From assembly GCA_021413925.1 (NCBI GenBank), contig JAIOPL010000002.1, positions 135,655 through 199,654 on the forward strand: 64,000 bases of DNA, written 5' to 3'. The stretch comes from Verrucomicrobiota bacterium (GTDB lineage: Bacteria; Verrucomicrobiota; Verrucomicrobiia; Chthoniobacterales; UBA6821). This document shows positions 8,478 to 46,413 of this stretch, piece after piece. Numbering within the stretch: the first letter of the stretch is position 1; each line of letters opens with the position of its first letter. The notes beneath the pieces are model-generated. The model was not told the DNA's origin, searched no databases, and saw only the letters and a program-made list of their open reading frames with translations. Both the position numbers and the translations under genes were made by a program.

Positions 8478-9089
8478 TTATTTTGTAGCGAGATACGGTA
8501 TCGCCGCGACGCGGGCCTTCACATCCTCAAGGCCATCGACGAGGTCGGCGATGGAATCCCAGCGGCCGTTCATGAGAGGCTCACGGGCATGTCCCGGGAG
8601 CGAGAACTCGGCTGCGAAATCGACATCATCGGTGGTCACTTTGCTCTCGGTGAGATCGATGGTGACTTGAATGGAGGGGTTCTTTTCGATGAGCGCCGCG
8701 AGATCGGCGATATCATTCTTGGACATCTTCACACAGGGGATGCCAAGTGTCGTCGAGTTGCCGAAAAAGATCTCGGCAAAGCTCTCTGCAATGATGGCGC
8801 GGAAGCCGTAGCGGTAGAGGGCCTGAGGGGCATGCTCCCGGGAGCTGCCACAGCCGAAGTTCGATCCGGAGATCAGGATGGTGGCTCCGTTGAATCGCGA
8901 ATCATCAAGGGCATGGAGCCTGCCTGCAGCCTTCTCGGCAAGCTTGGCGTCGGCAAAGGCGAACTCTCCAAGTCCGTCGAAGGTGACGCACTTCATGAAG
9001 CGGGCTGGAATGATACGGTCGGTGTCGATGTCATCGCCGGGGACGAAGACGCCGCGTCCGGAGATCTGAGTGATTTTTTCGAGGGACAT
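8478..9089 (-). CDS. leuD: 3-isopropylmalate dehydratase small subunit
   Basis: 203 residues (E. coli LeuD 201). The swivel-domain signature ISGSNFGCGSSREHAPQAL is present, as is the N-terminal GDDIDTDRIIPARF. With LeuC it isomerises 2-isopropylmalate to 3-isopropylmalate in leucine synthesis. It follows leuC on the minus strand but is separated from it by 211 bp, unusually far for this pair. The 79 nt immediately before its ATG contain no G in the sense strand and no Shine-Dalgarno sequence. Confidence 0.96.
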   Translation of the reverse strand: MSLEKITQISGRGVFVPGDDIDTDRIIPARFMKCVTFDGLGEFAFADAKLAEKAAGRLHALDDSRFNGATILISGSNFGCGSSREHAPQALYRYGFRAIIAESFAEIFFGNSTTLGIPCVKMSKNDIADLAALIEKNPSIQVTIDLTESKVTTDDVDFAAEFSLPGHAREPLMNGRWDSIADLVDGLEDVKARVAAIPYLATK

Positions 9090-9168
9090 GGAATGGGAAA
9101 GTAAGAATTATGAAGGATGAAGTATGAAAAGGGATGAGTGGAGAGGGATGAGTGGAGAGGGATGGTGG
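9090..9168 (-). promoter_or_regulatory. G-free 79-nt leader of leuD with a tandem 14-mer
   Basis: Every base from the leuD start codon back to 9168 is A, C or T in the sense strand; the given strand has no C. It includes two exact copies of a 14-mer at 9131-9144 and 9145-9158 (GGGATGAGTGGAGA on the given strand) and half a third copy to 9165. No Shine-Dalgarno sequence is possible here. An unstructured leader read through ribosomal protein S1 is the simplest explanation (inference). Similar G-free leaders precede hisA and eno in this window. Confidence 0.55.
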
Positions 9169-9291
9169 CAGCTCTTGGGCCGATTTTTCTAGATTTATTG
9201 GAATGTACGGACTTACGGGATACAGCGTGTTTTGCTCAAAGTTTAAAGGTTAGGAAATCAGGTTTTTCATACTTCATACCTCATCCTTCAT
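9110..9291. repeat. inverted repeat in the leuC-leuD spacer
   Basis: The left arm at 9110-9130 (ATGAAGGATGA then AGTATGAAAA) is the reverse complement of the right arm at 9264-9291, except that the right arm has seven extra bases (a second GTATGA-type unit). About 133 bp lie between the arms. The arms could pair in the leuC-leuD mRNA or mark an old small insertion. No transposase or target duplication is visible, and no promoter can be assigned with confidence in the enclosed AT-richer stretch (9180-9263). Confidence 0.5.
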
Positions 9292-9300
9292 CCTTTGCCT

Positions 9301-10710
9301 TTAGTTGATTCCGAAGACCTTGCGGGCGTCGCTTACTTCGCCGGTGAGAGCGGCGGCGGCGACCATGAGCGGACTCATGAGCATGGTGCGTCCGGTCGGA
9401 CTACCCTGGCGGCCCTTGAAGTTGCGGTTGCTGGAGCTGGCGCAGAGTTGGTCCCCGACGAGTTTGTCGGGATTCATGCCAAGGCACATGGAGCAACCGG
9501 CACCGCGCCACTCAAAGCCAGCCTCACGGAAGATCTCCGCCAGTCCCATCTTCTCGGCAACGGAGGCCACTCCCTGTGATCCGGGAACGACTATCGCCTT
9601 CACATGCGAGGCGACCTTGCGACCGCGGATATGCTTGGCAACTTCCTGGAGATCAGAGAGGCGTCCGTTAGTGCAACTGCCGAGGAAGGCGACATCGATC
9701 TTGATACCGATCGCAGGGGTGCCGGCAGTGAGCTTCATGTGCTCGATAGCCTCATGGGCGGTTGCGCGGTCCTTCTCGGGGAGGTCGTCGGGATTGGGGA
9801 TCGCCTCATCGATAAAGATCGCCTGTCCGGGGGTAATCCCCCAGGTGATGGTAGGGAGAATCTCCTCGGCCTTGAAATTCACGATGTCGTCGTAAACGGC
9901 ATCCTTGTCCGAGGCCACGGCCTTCCAGCGTGCGACTGCCGCATCCCACTCGGCTCCCTTAGGGGAGTAGGGGCGGCCGCGCAGATATTCGAAGGTGGTC
10001 TCGTCCGGGTTCACATAGCCGACGCGGGCCCCGCCCTCAATCGACATGTTGCAGACGGTCATACGTTCTTCCTGGGTGAAAGCGTCGAATGTCGAGCCTG
10101 CGAACTCGTAGGCGTAGCCGATGCCGCCGTTCACCCCGAGGTGACGGATGATATGGAGAATGACATCCTTGGAATAGACGCCGGGGGCGAGCTTTCCGTC
10201 GACATTGATGCGGCGGACCTTGGGCTTCCCGATTGCCATGGTCTGGGTGGCGAGGACGTCGCGCACCTGGCTCGTGCCGATACCGAAGGCGATCGCTCCG
10301 AAGGCTCCGTGGGTCGAGGTGTGGGAGTCACCGCAGGCGATCGTGGTGCCGGGCTGGGTGATCCCCTGTTCCGGACCTACGATATGGACGATACCTTGAT
10401 TCCCCGAAGGAAGGTCAAAGAAGGTGACTCCGCTCTCGGCACAATTCTTGCGCAGTTCCTTCACCATCGCATCGGCAAGCGGATCGGAGAAGGGTTCGGC
10501 GCGCTGATCGGTCGGGACGATGTGATCGACGGTCGCGAAGGTGCGGTTCGGATAGAGAACTTTCAGGCCAAGGTCACGTACCATGCCGAAGGCCTGGGGA
10601 CTGGTGACCTCGTGGATGAGGTGGGTGCCGATCAGAAGTTGAGTCCTACCGTCGGGGAGCGTGCGAACGGTGTGTTCCTCCCAGACTTTATCAAGAAGCG
10701 TTTTGCCCAT
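9301..10710 (-). CDS. leuC: 3-isopropylmalate dehydratase large subunit
   Basis: 469 residues (E. coli 466). The aconitase-family [4Fe-4S] cysteines are seen in [13 protein letters not shown] and in [13 protein letters not shown] (CxxC), and the active-site segment [13 protein letters not shown] is intact. It is the catalytic subunit partnering LeuD. It is divergent from icd with a 120-bp shared upstream region, whose sense-strand leader toward leuC is pyrimidine-rich and lacks a Shine-Dalgarno sequence. leuA and leuB are not in this window. Confidence 0.97.
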
Positions 10711-10731
10711 AGTCAGCCAAGGCTAGCGTGA

Positions 10732-13052
<2,321 letters not shown>

Positions 13053-35759: not shown

Positions 35760-36356
35760 ATGACCGACACAGTCCGCTCCGCATCCCTCGATCGCAAGAC
35801 TACTGAGACAGAGATCACCCTCCATATCTCACTCGATGGCGAAGGGAGATCCTCCGTCCGAACCGGCATTCCGTTCTTCGACCACATGCTGACCCTGTTT
35901 TCCCGTCACTCCCTCATTGATCTGGATATCGAGGCGAAAGGAGACATCGAGGTCGACTATCACCACACCGTGGAGGATGTCGGATTGGCACTCGGAGCCG
36001 CTTTAACGAAGGCTCTCGGTGACAAATCGGGGATCCGACGTTATGGCAGTGCCTATGTTCCGATGGATGAAGCCCTAGCCCGTGTTGTGGTGGATTGCAG
36101 CGGACGACCCTACCTTGCCTACGAGGTGCCGCGCGGCGTTGAGGCGATTGGACTCTTTCCCTTCCAGCTCGTCGAGGAGTTCCTGCGTGCATTCAGCGTA
36201 CAGGCTGGTCTGACGCTCCATGTTTCCATTTTGGCCGGACGTGATGCTCATCACATGGCGGAGGCGATCTTCAAGGCGCTGGGACGCGCCCTCGATGTCG
36301 CGGTTTCCCGTGATGACCGGGTGAAGGGAATCCCCAGCACCAAGGGCGTGCTGTGA
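35760..36356 (+). CDS. hisB: imidazoleglycerol-phosphate dehydratase
   Basis: 198 residues, the monofunctional form. Metal-binding motifs are FFDHMLTLFSRHS, DYHHTVEDVG and AGRDAHHMAEAIFKA. It dehydrates imidazole-glycerol phosphate in histidine synthesis. Its stop overlaps the hisH start (GTGA), and hisA follows, so hisB-hisH-hisA form a unit; hisF and the rest of the pathway are elsewhere. Confidence 0.97.
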   Translation: MTDTVRSASLDRKTTETEITLHISLDGEGRSSVRTGIPFFDHMLTLFSRHSLIDLDIEAKGDIEVDYHHTVEDVGLALGAALTKALGDKSGIRRYGSAYVPMDEALARVVVDCSGRPYLAYEVPRGVEAIGLFPFQLVEEFLRAFSVQAGLTLHVSILAGRDAHHMAEAIFKALGRALDVAVSRDDRVKGIPSTKGVL

Positions 36357-36979
36357 GTAAGCCGCCGCTTCTCGGTCTCGTCGACTACGGCAGTGGTAAT
36401 CTCCGCAGCGTCCAGCGTGCTATCGAGCATGCCGGTGGTGAATGCATCCATGTCCAGAGCGAGGCCGACACGACGAACTGTGCCGCCCTGGTGGTTCCCG
36501 GTGTCGGCTCTTTCGGGGATTGTGCACGCCAGCTTCGGGAGACGGGGCTCTGGGAAGTGATCAAGTCTTGGATCGGTACCAACAAGCCCTATCTCGGCAT
36601 CTGCCTGGGCTACCAGCTTCTCTTCGACTCGAGCGAGGAATCGCCAGGTGTGGAGGGCCTCGGCGCTCTTCGTGGGAAAGTTGTCCACTTTTCCAAGTCC
36701 TCGGGACTCAAGATTCCCCATATGGGATGGAATCAACTGCACATCCACAAACCCTCGGATCGCCTGATGACGGGTCTGGTTGAGAATCCCGATTTCTACT
36801 TCGTCCATTCCTACTACCCGGTTCCCGAGGATGATGAGGTCATCACTTCCACCTGTACCTATGGAGTGGAATTCGCAGCCAGTGTCTCTAAAGGCAACCT
36901 GAGCGCTGTTCAGTTCCATCCGGAGAAGAGTCAGGAGCTTGGATTGTCCATGCTCAGGAATTTTATCTCCTCCCTCTAA
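36353..36979 (+). CDS. hisH: imidazole glycerol phosphate synthase, glutaminase subunit
   Basis: 208 residues from a GTG overlapping the hisB stop by 3 bp. The class I amidotransferase triad is present: Cys in YLGICLGYQLLF, and His and Glu in VQFHPEKSQ. LVDYGSGNLRSV and HMGWNQL are typical of HisH. It supplies ammonia from glutamine to HisF. It is followed by a G-free 49-nt leader and hisA. Confidence 0.97.
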   Translation: MSKPPLLGLVDYGSGNLRSVQRAIEHAGGECIHVQSEADTTNCAALVVPGVGSFGDCARQLRETGLWEVIKSWIGTNKPYLGICLGYQLLFDSSEESPGVEGLGALRGKVVHFSKSSGLKIPHMGWNQLHIHKPSDRLMTGLVENPDFYFVHSYYPVPEDDEVITSTCTYGVEFAASVSKGNLSAVQFHPEKSQELGLSMLRNFISSL

Positions 36980-36980
36980 G

Positions 36981-37029
36981 ATACCTCTTCACTTTTCCAC
37001 CTTTTACCTTTCACTTTCCACTTCACAAA
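36981..37029 (+). promoter_or_regulatory. G-free 49-nt leader of hisA
   Basis: The 49 bases directly before the hisA ATG contain no G and consist of repeated CTTTTCCACC, ACCTTTCACTTTCC-like units. There is no Shine-Dalgarno sequence. The same feature precedes leuD (79 nt) and eno (39 nt). It looks like a deliberately unstructured ribosome landing site, possibly bound by ribosomal protein S1 (inference). Confidence 0.5.
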
Positions 37030-37743
37030 ATGCTCCTTTATCCCGCCATTGATCTCATGGATGGTCAGGTTGTCCGTCTGGAACGCGGCCTTGCCGCAAA
37101 AAAAACAATCTACAGTGATGATCCTGTCGCCATGGCATTAAAGTGGGAGGCTGCCGGGGCCGACTGGATTCACTTGGTGGATCTCGATGCCGCCTTTGAA
37201 GGAAAGAGCCGAAATCTGGACGTCATTCGTGCGATTGCCCAGGCTGTCACTGTGCCTTGCGAACTCGGTGGAGGGATGCGTGATGCAGGATCGATCGAGG
37301 CGGGCCTAGCCACCGGAGTTCGCAGGGTCATCATCGGAACCAAAGCGGCCGAACCTGGTTTCTTGGCAGAAGCTGCAGGTGCCTTCGGGCCTTCGCAGCT
37401 AGCGGTGGGTATTGATGCCAAGGAGGGAAAGGTGGCGGTGAAGGGATGGGTGGAGACGATGGAGATGACTGCCCTAGATCTTGCCCGTGAGGCTGTGAAT
37501 GTCGGGATCCGAACGATCATTTATACCGACATCGCAACAGACGGAATGCTTCAGGGGCCCAATCTTGCAGCCATGCGCGAGATGGCACTCACTGTTCCCT
37601 GCGACCTGATCGCGAGTGGCGGGGTGTCGGGCCCGGAAGATCTCCGTCAGCTCGCCATGATTCCTGGGATCCATGGGGCGATCATTGGACGCGCGCTGTA
37701 CGAGGGACGGATGCCTGAGGATCTACGAAGTATCCTGAAGTGA
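37030..37743 (+). CDS. hisA: phosphoribosylformimino-5-aminoimidazole carboxamide ribotide isomerase
   Basis: 237 residues, a TIM barrel with LLYPAIDLMDGQVVRL (catalytic Asp), the phosphate loops LGGGMRDAGSIEAGLATG and IASGGVSGPEDL, and the second Asp in IYTDIATDGML. It performs the fourth step of histidine synthesis. It ends the hisB-hisH-hisA unit; a perfect 11-bp hairpin follows 25 bp after the stop. Confidence 0.97.
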   Translation: MLLYPAIDLMDGQVVRLERGLAAKKTIYSDDPVAMALKWEAAGADWIHLVDLDAAFEGKSRNLDVIRAIAQAVTVPCELGGGMRDAGSIEAGLATGVRRVIIGTKAAEPGFLAEAAGAFGPSQLAVGIDAKEGKVAVKGWVETMEMTALDLAREAVNVGIRTIIYTDIATDGMLQGPNLAAMREMALTVPCDLIASGGVSGPEDLRQLAMIPGIHGAIIGRALYEGRMPEDLRSILK

Positions 37744-37840: not shown

Positions 37841-38257
37841 CTAGTCCTGCTTGAACTTGGTGTGCCCCTCTTTCTTGATCGGGCCAACGGCCGACAGAAG
37901 AGTTTTTGCCTGATCGTATTTCCCAGTGCTCACGGCCTCCTCGATCTGATTGAAGGCGGCGGAGAGTTTGTCGATCTGAGCCCTGTAGTCAGCCAGAAAC
38001 CTTTCCCTATCAGCTTGTGGAACCGAGGCAGCCTTGCGTGGATCCAATCCCTTGGCGTCGGAAGCGGCCTGCTTGAGGGTCTCCATCAGCGTGACACTTG
38101 ACTGCTGCTTCGCTGGATCGGCGATCTGTCCGGAGAGCTGTTTCATGCTCCTGGCCATGATCTGCATCTGCTTCTCAAGCGGTGTGTCTTCGTCGGCGCG
38201 GAGTGAGAACACCAAGGTAATCAAGGAAAAGGAAAGGAGAAGGTTGCGGATTTTCAT
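37841..38257 (-). CDS. periplasmic cytochrome b562-like four-helix protein
   Basis: 138 residues with a signal peptide ending near LRA. The mature part aligns by eye with E. coli cytochrome b562. LEKQMQIM matches LEDNMETL, placing a Met at the axial-ligand position 7, and the C-terminal GHTKFK matches YHQKYR, placing a His at the second ligand position 102. Spacing and helix pattern (about 105 mature residues) agree. It may bind non-covalent heme in the periplasm; function in electron transfer is unproven in the family. It converges on hisA. Confidence 0.72.
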   Translation of the reverse strand: MKIRNLLLSFSLITLVFSLRADEDTPLEKQMQIMARSMKQLSGQIADPAKQQSSVTLMETLKQAASDAKGLDPRKAASVPQADRERFLADYRAQIDKLSAAFNQIEEAVSTGKYDQAKTLLSAVGPIKKEGHTKFKQD

Positions 38258-38301
38258 AAGATGATGATGTGATGGGGAAGAGTGAAAGGATTCGGAAGAA
38301 A

Positions 38302-45087: not shown

Positions 45088-46413
<1,326 letters not shown>

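Follow-up and report, generated by a model that had tools for sequence, protein, structure and literature searches.

Why should a bacterial gene be preceded by a long tract without a single G that ends exactly at its start codon? The question is raised by hisA of a verrucomicrobial bacterium that is most closely related, among named organisms, to freshwater Spartobacteria / Chthoniobacterales MAGs. The window, meaning the whole stretch of 64,000 nt that was analysed, corresponds to G000:C2:135655-199654 in a draft genome (G000) of 2.4 Mb and 95.5% completeness. The in-depth analysis covered 1.02 Mb, or 43% of this one genome, taken as stretches, with gene starts computed by a home-made caller that uses a hexamer coding score and start-codon type and is blind to upstream sequence. 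A search for plasmid similarity gave no match, and an Rfam search of the window returned two tRNAs only, the leaders matching no RNA family. The features of the window that bear on the question are the following:

36981..37029, plus strand: hisA leader, 49 nt without G, heptads CTTTTAC / CTTTCAC / TTTCCAC, adjoining the ATG at 37030
37030..37743, plus strand: hisA (TIGR00007, 237 aa)
36353..36979, plus strand: hisH, upstream neighbour of hisA, with its TAA stop at 36977-36979 followed by a G at 36980
35760-36356: hisB, first in the hisB-hisH-hisA run, in which hisA is third
9090..9168, minus strand: leuD leader, 79 nt without G, CATCCCT / CTCCACT and then TTCATCC / TTCATAA heptads
8478..9089, minus strand: leuD (3-isopropylmalate dehydratase small subunit)
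9263..9296, plus strand: reverse-orientation heptad arm directly after the leuC stop, complementary to the leuD leader
46375..46413, minus strand: eno leader, 39 nt without G, AACTTCC / ATCTACC / CACTCCT heptads
45088..46374, minus strand: eno (enolase)
38258..38292, minus strand: leader of a cytochrome b562-like gene (37841-38257), 35 nt without G
10728..10758, minus strand: milder leuC leader, 31 nt without G, separated by 17 nt from the ATG at 10710

The gap between hisH and hisA is 50 nt long and its last 49 positions are free of G, so the leader fills the gap. The original prediction of a G-free hisA leader was thus confirmed up to the ATG, as were, by their coordinates, the tracts of 79 and 39 nt that it had assigned to leuD and eno; the cytochrome gene leader had escaped it. 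Milder versions had also been claimed for icd, leuC and sdhA, and this claim holds for leuC, where the 31-nt run is accompanied by five G within the last 45 nt before the ATG. Besides hisA, leuD, eno and the cytochrome gene, four genes of the window, leuC included, have at most five G in their last 45 nt.

Chance origin had been considered very unlikely, and the counts within the 1.02 Mb bear this out. The ATG is preceded by a G-free run of 35 nt or more in 26 of 490 genes, where 0.4 are predicted under independent positions and within-sequence shuffles give 3.7, with a maximum of 6 among 50 shuffles. With the threshold lowered to 30 nt, 34 of the 504 genes with room carry a G-free run abutting the ATG (6.3 in within-sequence shuffles), and tracts of that length before the same 504 starts are C-free in no case, A-free in one and T-free in one. 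When runs were collected from either strand, 24 of the 45 that reach at least 40 nt, and five of the six that reach at least 60 nt, end exactly in ATG. Of the runs that reach 35 nt or more, gaps between co-directional genes hold 43 on the sense strand vs 9 on the other, and stop-stop gaps hold 0 and 2 per strand, about as many as shuffled sequence, with no enrichment. The genome scan that had been named beforehand as a possible refutation thus did not refute the claim, as it tied the runs to ATG and not to stop-stop gaps. Leaders of 25–35 nt or more are found in only 5–8% of the genes with room, so most genes start without one.

The annotated leader genes are mostly housekeeping genes with no common pathway, and include leuD, trpS, pgk-like, rmlA, pyrE, alaS, purU, ubiX and RNase E/G together with eno, argF, argJ, hflX, ppa-like, a HU-like protein and others. 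Their effective codon number is lower than that of other genes (45.5 vs 47.9, p = 0.002), and this stronger codon bias gives a weak hint of higher expression; the association with expression level that had been suggested is weakly supported to this extent.

The absence of a Shine-Dalgarno (SD) sequence before hisA is general within the 1.02 Mb set, in which no SD peak was found at any upstream position. Core SD words occur at −20 to −4 in 102 of 862 windows, fewer than the 132 and 152 counted in control windows placed farther upstream. The 16S gene is absent from the MAG and the 16S end was therefore read from congeners, where the anti-SD GGATCACCTCCTTTCT is intact. Positions −35 to −1 contain 18% G and 30% C, a fall and a rise respectively that leave G+C at 48.3%, close to the 49.4% of more distal positions in these gaps, so that only G drops. 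The long G-free leaders are one tail of this genome-wide depletion of G without an SD peak. The avoidance continues into the coding sequence, as third-position G in codons 2–6 amounts to 8% in leader genes and 15% in other genes, vs 27–28% deeper inside. Immediately before the start, C is strongly favoured, accounting for 48% of bases at −1 and 42% at −2 (861 starts, 1.02 Mb).

Predicted folding follows the same gradient. The segment from −40 to +20 has a predicted folding energy of −1.7 kcal/mol in leader genes and −8.9 kcal/mol in other genes, and 60 nt inside genes reach −15.4 kcal/mol. The hisA leader with the first 20 nt of hisA is predicted to have no structure (MFE 0.0).

The second regularity of the leaders, which the original prediction had missed, is a period of seven. 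Among 45 G-free leaders, identity between positions gives z = 8.6 at lag 7, 7.7 at lag 14 and 5.3 at lag 21, and lag 7 is the best lag in 16 of the 34 leaders of at least 30 nt; many leaders are thus degenerate heptamer arrays. The units CTTTCAC, ACTTCC and CATCC, originally read as shared by the leaders, are not one motif and belong instead to several different 7-nt repeat families. A single shared motif was rejected, given at least four G-free heptad families (TTCATCC/TTCATAA, CTTTCAC/CTTTTCA, CTTCCAT/AACTCC and ATTACCC) and further families with G (TTCAGGT, TTTAGCC and CTCGACC). A fixed spacing between the last unit and the ATG was also rejected, since TTCATCC shows a loose preference only, for 8–10 nt. 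Intergenic arrays as a whole number 47 at lag 7, clearly more than at any other lag, followed by 22 at lag 8 and 19 at the harmonic lag 14. About 20 tandem CGACCTT copies at L095:16935-17113 lie at the end of contig G000:C6 and likely caused the assembly break there.

The repeats invite the explanation that the leaders are neutral, that is, slippage-prone DNA which piles up in gaps and acquires its link to start codons as a by-product of where the gaps lie. The period itself and the sharing of families among many gaps are in keeping with this, as is the over-representation of heptamer repeats in many bacteria (PMC4692102). Thirteen of the 47 lag-7 arrays point elsewhere than to a start codon, the TTCAGGT family is frequent near stop codons too (17 vs 30), and reverse-oriented copies are present in stop-stop gaps and downstream of stop codons. 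Arrays of opposite orientation that point outward at both ends of a gap were seen at L058:17267-17463, L080:14432-14548, L084:2867-3039 and in the leuC-leuD gap, two of these examples being stop-stop gaps. Against neutrality stands the strength of the strand and position bias, with sense vs antisense counts in the 60 nt before starts of 38 vs 6 for TTCATCC, 21 vs 4 for TTTCACT and 25 vs 2 for CAGGTTT. The G-free runs moreover end at ATG without enrichment in stop-stop gaps, G avoidance extends to synonymous sites inside the gene, and some leaders lack heptads altogether, as in G026, a genome taken for contrast, whose leaders have no period. Neutral accumulation is an improbable account of the leaders, though the likeliest of the three alternatives to a translational role considered here.

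Comparison of orthologues separates the units from the property that they share. In 14 congeners the hisA leader is invariably rich in pyrimidines immediately upstream of the ATG, but its units differ, with CTTTCAC in the nearest species and AACTCC/CTCCTAACT, TTCAGCT or TTCATCTC elsewhere; in several of them, one or two G lie close to the ATG. Enolase is 99% identical between G000 and G009, and the two eno leaders consist of unrelated heptads, AACTTCC-like and CCCAATA-like respectively. Closely related species can carry different heptad families before one and the same gene, while position, strand and poverty in G are largely kept. This turnover, too, had escaped the original prediction. Tails of 10 nt or more without G were found in 83% of the orthologues of G000 leader genes vs 19% for other genes, the former figure coming from 30 sequences of six genes, mostly hisA, some of which are two stretches of one genome and so not independent.

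To measure the spread of the pattern, 35 G-free bases followed by ATG were counted against the mirrored pattern. The ratio is 5.5-fold within the genus (546 vs 99 in 16 genomes), and the excess continues in the sister genus (429 vs 142 in six genomes), the rest of the order (602 vs 182 in 36 genomes) and the other orders of the class (2547 vs 839 in 73 genomes, 3-fold). Other classes of the phylum gave 5066 vs 4102 in 161 genomes, of which 14 stand out, a phylum-wide count that is blurred by AT-rich genomes in which long G-free runs are common anyway. Twelve Firmicutes, alphaproteobacterial and archaeal genomes gave 2808 vs 2778 (1.0). The leader class had been proposed for this lineage; its tie to start codons stands, and its limitation to the lineage does not, since the pattern runs through the taxonomic class. 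Very regular heptad leaders before ATG were also seen in other classes of the phylum, in G246 (ACTCACC), G307 (ATATTCA), G225 and G200, and G172 has very regular leaders of period 8, built from octads; the units differ from genome to genome, and the G246, G307 and G172 examples were chosen by eye from the listing.

Taken together, these observations point to leaders that act in the mRNA as SD-independent docking sites for the ribosome, a reading to which a probability of roughly 0.6 is assigned on the strength of sequence comparison. The ribosome-recruiting class of the original prediction is thus upheld in its tie to start codons, by the scan, the shuffles and the congeners alike, and recruitment by the tract is, we infer, the best explanation of that tie. 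RNA before the AUG that lacks G, while retaining C, would form no internal G-C or G-U pairs, so the 30S subunit would meet an unfolded platform, rich in pyrimidines, that stops at the first AUG. The most likely contact of the tract would be ribosomal protein S1, which is encoded in the genome with six domains in a 606-codon frame at G000:C4:173229-174722. Heptad repeats probably give birth to, lengthen and replace such tracts, and selection would then retain those that are poor in G on the mRNA strand and abut the start codon. The leader of leuD need not be open, as it is predicted to be able to pair with the arm that follows leuC. The leuC-leuD gap (9090-9300) folds with the arms paired at a predicted −37.6 kcal/mol, vs −27.9 ± 3.8 kcal/mol for shuffled sequence, and such pairing could hide the leuD leader.

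Cold-shock proteins, proposed elsewhere as binders of heptads (PMC4679880), were rejected as candidates, no such gene having been found in G000. A search of the whole genome for a cold-shock-domain protein (PF00313) gave no match at 95.5% completeness of the MAG, and nine of 14 control genomes did match. The lack of PF00313 is unusual for a free-living bacterium, unless the gene is hidden in the missing 5%.

A simpler possibility is that any unfolded sequence suffices at a start, freedom from G being one way to achieve this in a G+C-rich genome, with S1 and pyrimidines irrelevant. Predicted folding that is far weaker at starts than inside genes, non-leader genes included, agrees with this, as does a similar role of structure in Flavobacterium (PMC6847099). 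C-free tracts, however, would be about as unstructured, and their absence before the 504 starts shows that an unfolded state alone does not account for the leaders; C is, in addition, enriched before starts. Structure avoidance by itself is for these reasons unlikely, and slightly more so than neutral repeats. Least probable of all is a G-less initially transcribed or promoter-proximal tract concerned with start-site choice, pausing or R-loop avoidance. An asymmetry between DNA strands could originate at transcription, but the leaders are found more often on operon-internal genes (15 of 111) than on first genes of divergent pairs (7 of 197; p = 0.002), a distribution that argues against promoter function. 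They also occupy short gaps, for example that between hisH and hisA, end exactly at the AUG and are continued by G avoidance within codons.

An extension of the docking reading would make the period itself functional. Each heptad would then be an equivalent site for a repeated RNA-binding surface, be it the S1 domains or an unknown protein, any loosely G-poor heptamer would work, lineages would freely exchange cassettes and the number of heptads would tune translation across Verrucomicrobiae. This extension is speculative and, at present, doubtful.

The leaders have parallels among known systems. Cyanobacterial short tandemly repeated heptanucleotides (STRR) are arrays of heptanucleotides in intergenic DNA. 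The leaders resemble these and the GGGAATC-type heptamers as intergenic heptanucleotide arrays, inverted pairs included; to our knowledge, neither of the two has a one-strand tie to start codons. The GGGAATC-type heptamers of Xanthomonas and Nostoc form such arrays in intergenic DNA (PMC4692102).

The closest parallel is found in marine Beggiatoaceae, where TAACTGA direct repeats lie upstream of start codons, a translational role has been proposed and S1 or Csp suggested as binders (MacGregor 2015, PMC4679880). These too are heptamer direct repeats that are mostly intergenic, face forward and end a few nt from the start codon, with SD missing, the anti-SD intact and housekeeping genes among the targets. 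Of the sampled intergenic TAACTGA sets of Microcystis, only six of 22 point to a start codon (PMC4679880). In contrast to the single TAACTGA unit, many units are in use here, TAACTGA having 0 tandem copies and 37 copies in total in 1.02 Mb. The units of the leaders studied here are furthermore G-free, their family is swapped between orthologues within the genus, and the cold-shock-domain protein that could correspond to the proposed Csp binder was not found; neither family swapping nor a G-free rule is described for Beggiatoaceae in the available part of PMC4679880. The leaders match the TAACTGA repeats in kind, but are not members of the TAACTGA family.

SD-independent initiation in Bacteroidetes likewise combines a lack of SD with an intact anti-SD and weakly structured starts, and S1 has been proposed there (PMC3155529, PMC6847099, PMC9976891). 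Bacteroidetes, however, show a drop in G+C (PMC3155529) and A-rich positions, whereas the starts of the present genome are preceded by a loss of G only and a gain in C, together with heptads and long tracts free of G. Akkermansia and other SD-scarce Verrucomicrobia share the phylum, low SD use and a conserved CCUCC anti-SD, and the passages of that paper that were consulted make no mention of G-free or heptad leaders (PMC10783764). No description of a G-free leader class in Verrucomicrobia was found in the literature covered, which excludes most subscription journals.

How start codons are chosen in bacteria without SD signals is an open question, and it is on this question that the leaders bear. 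The lineage offers a clear and countable signature, with no G, many pyrimidines and a period of seven, in a G+C-rich genome. Because one heptad family has naturally taken the place of another before nearly identical genes, experiments can tell apart the roles of structure, pyrimidines, S1 and the repeat period, and the signature could help to correct start-codon annotation in a large and poorly cultivated group.
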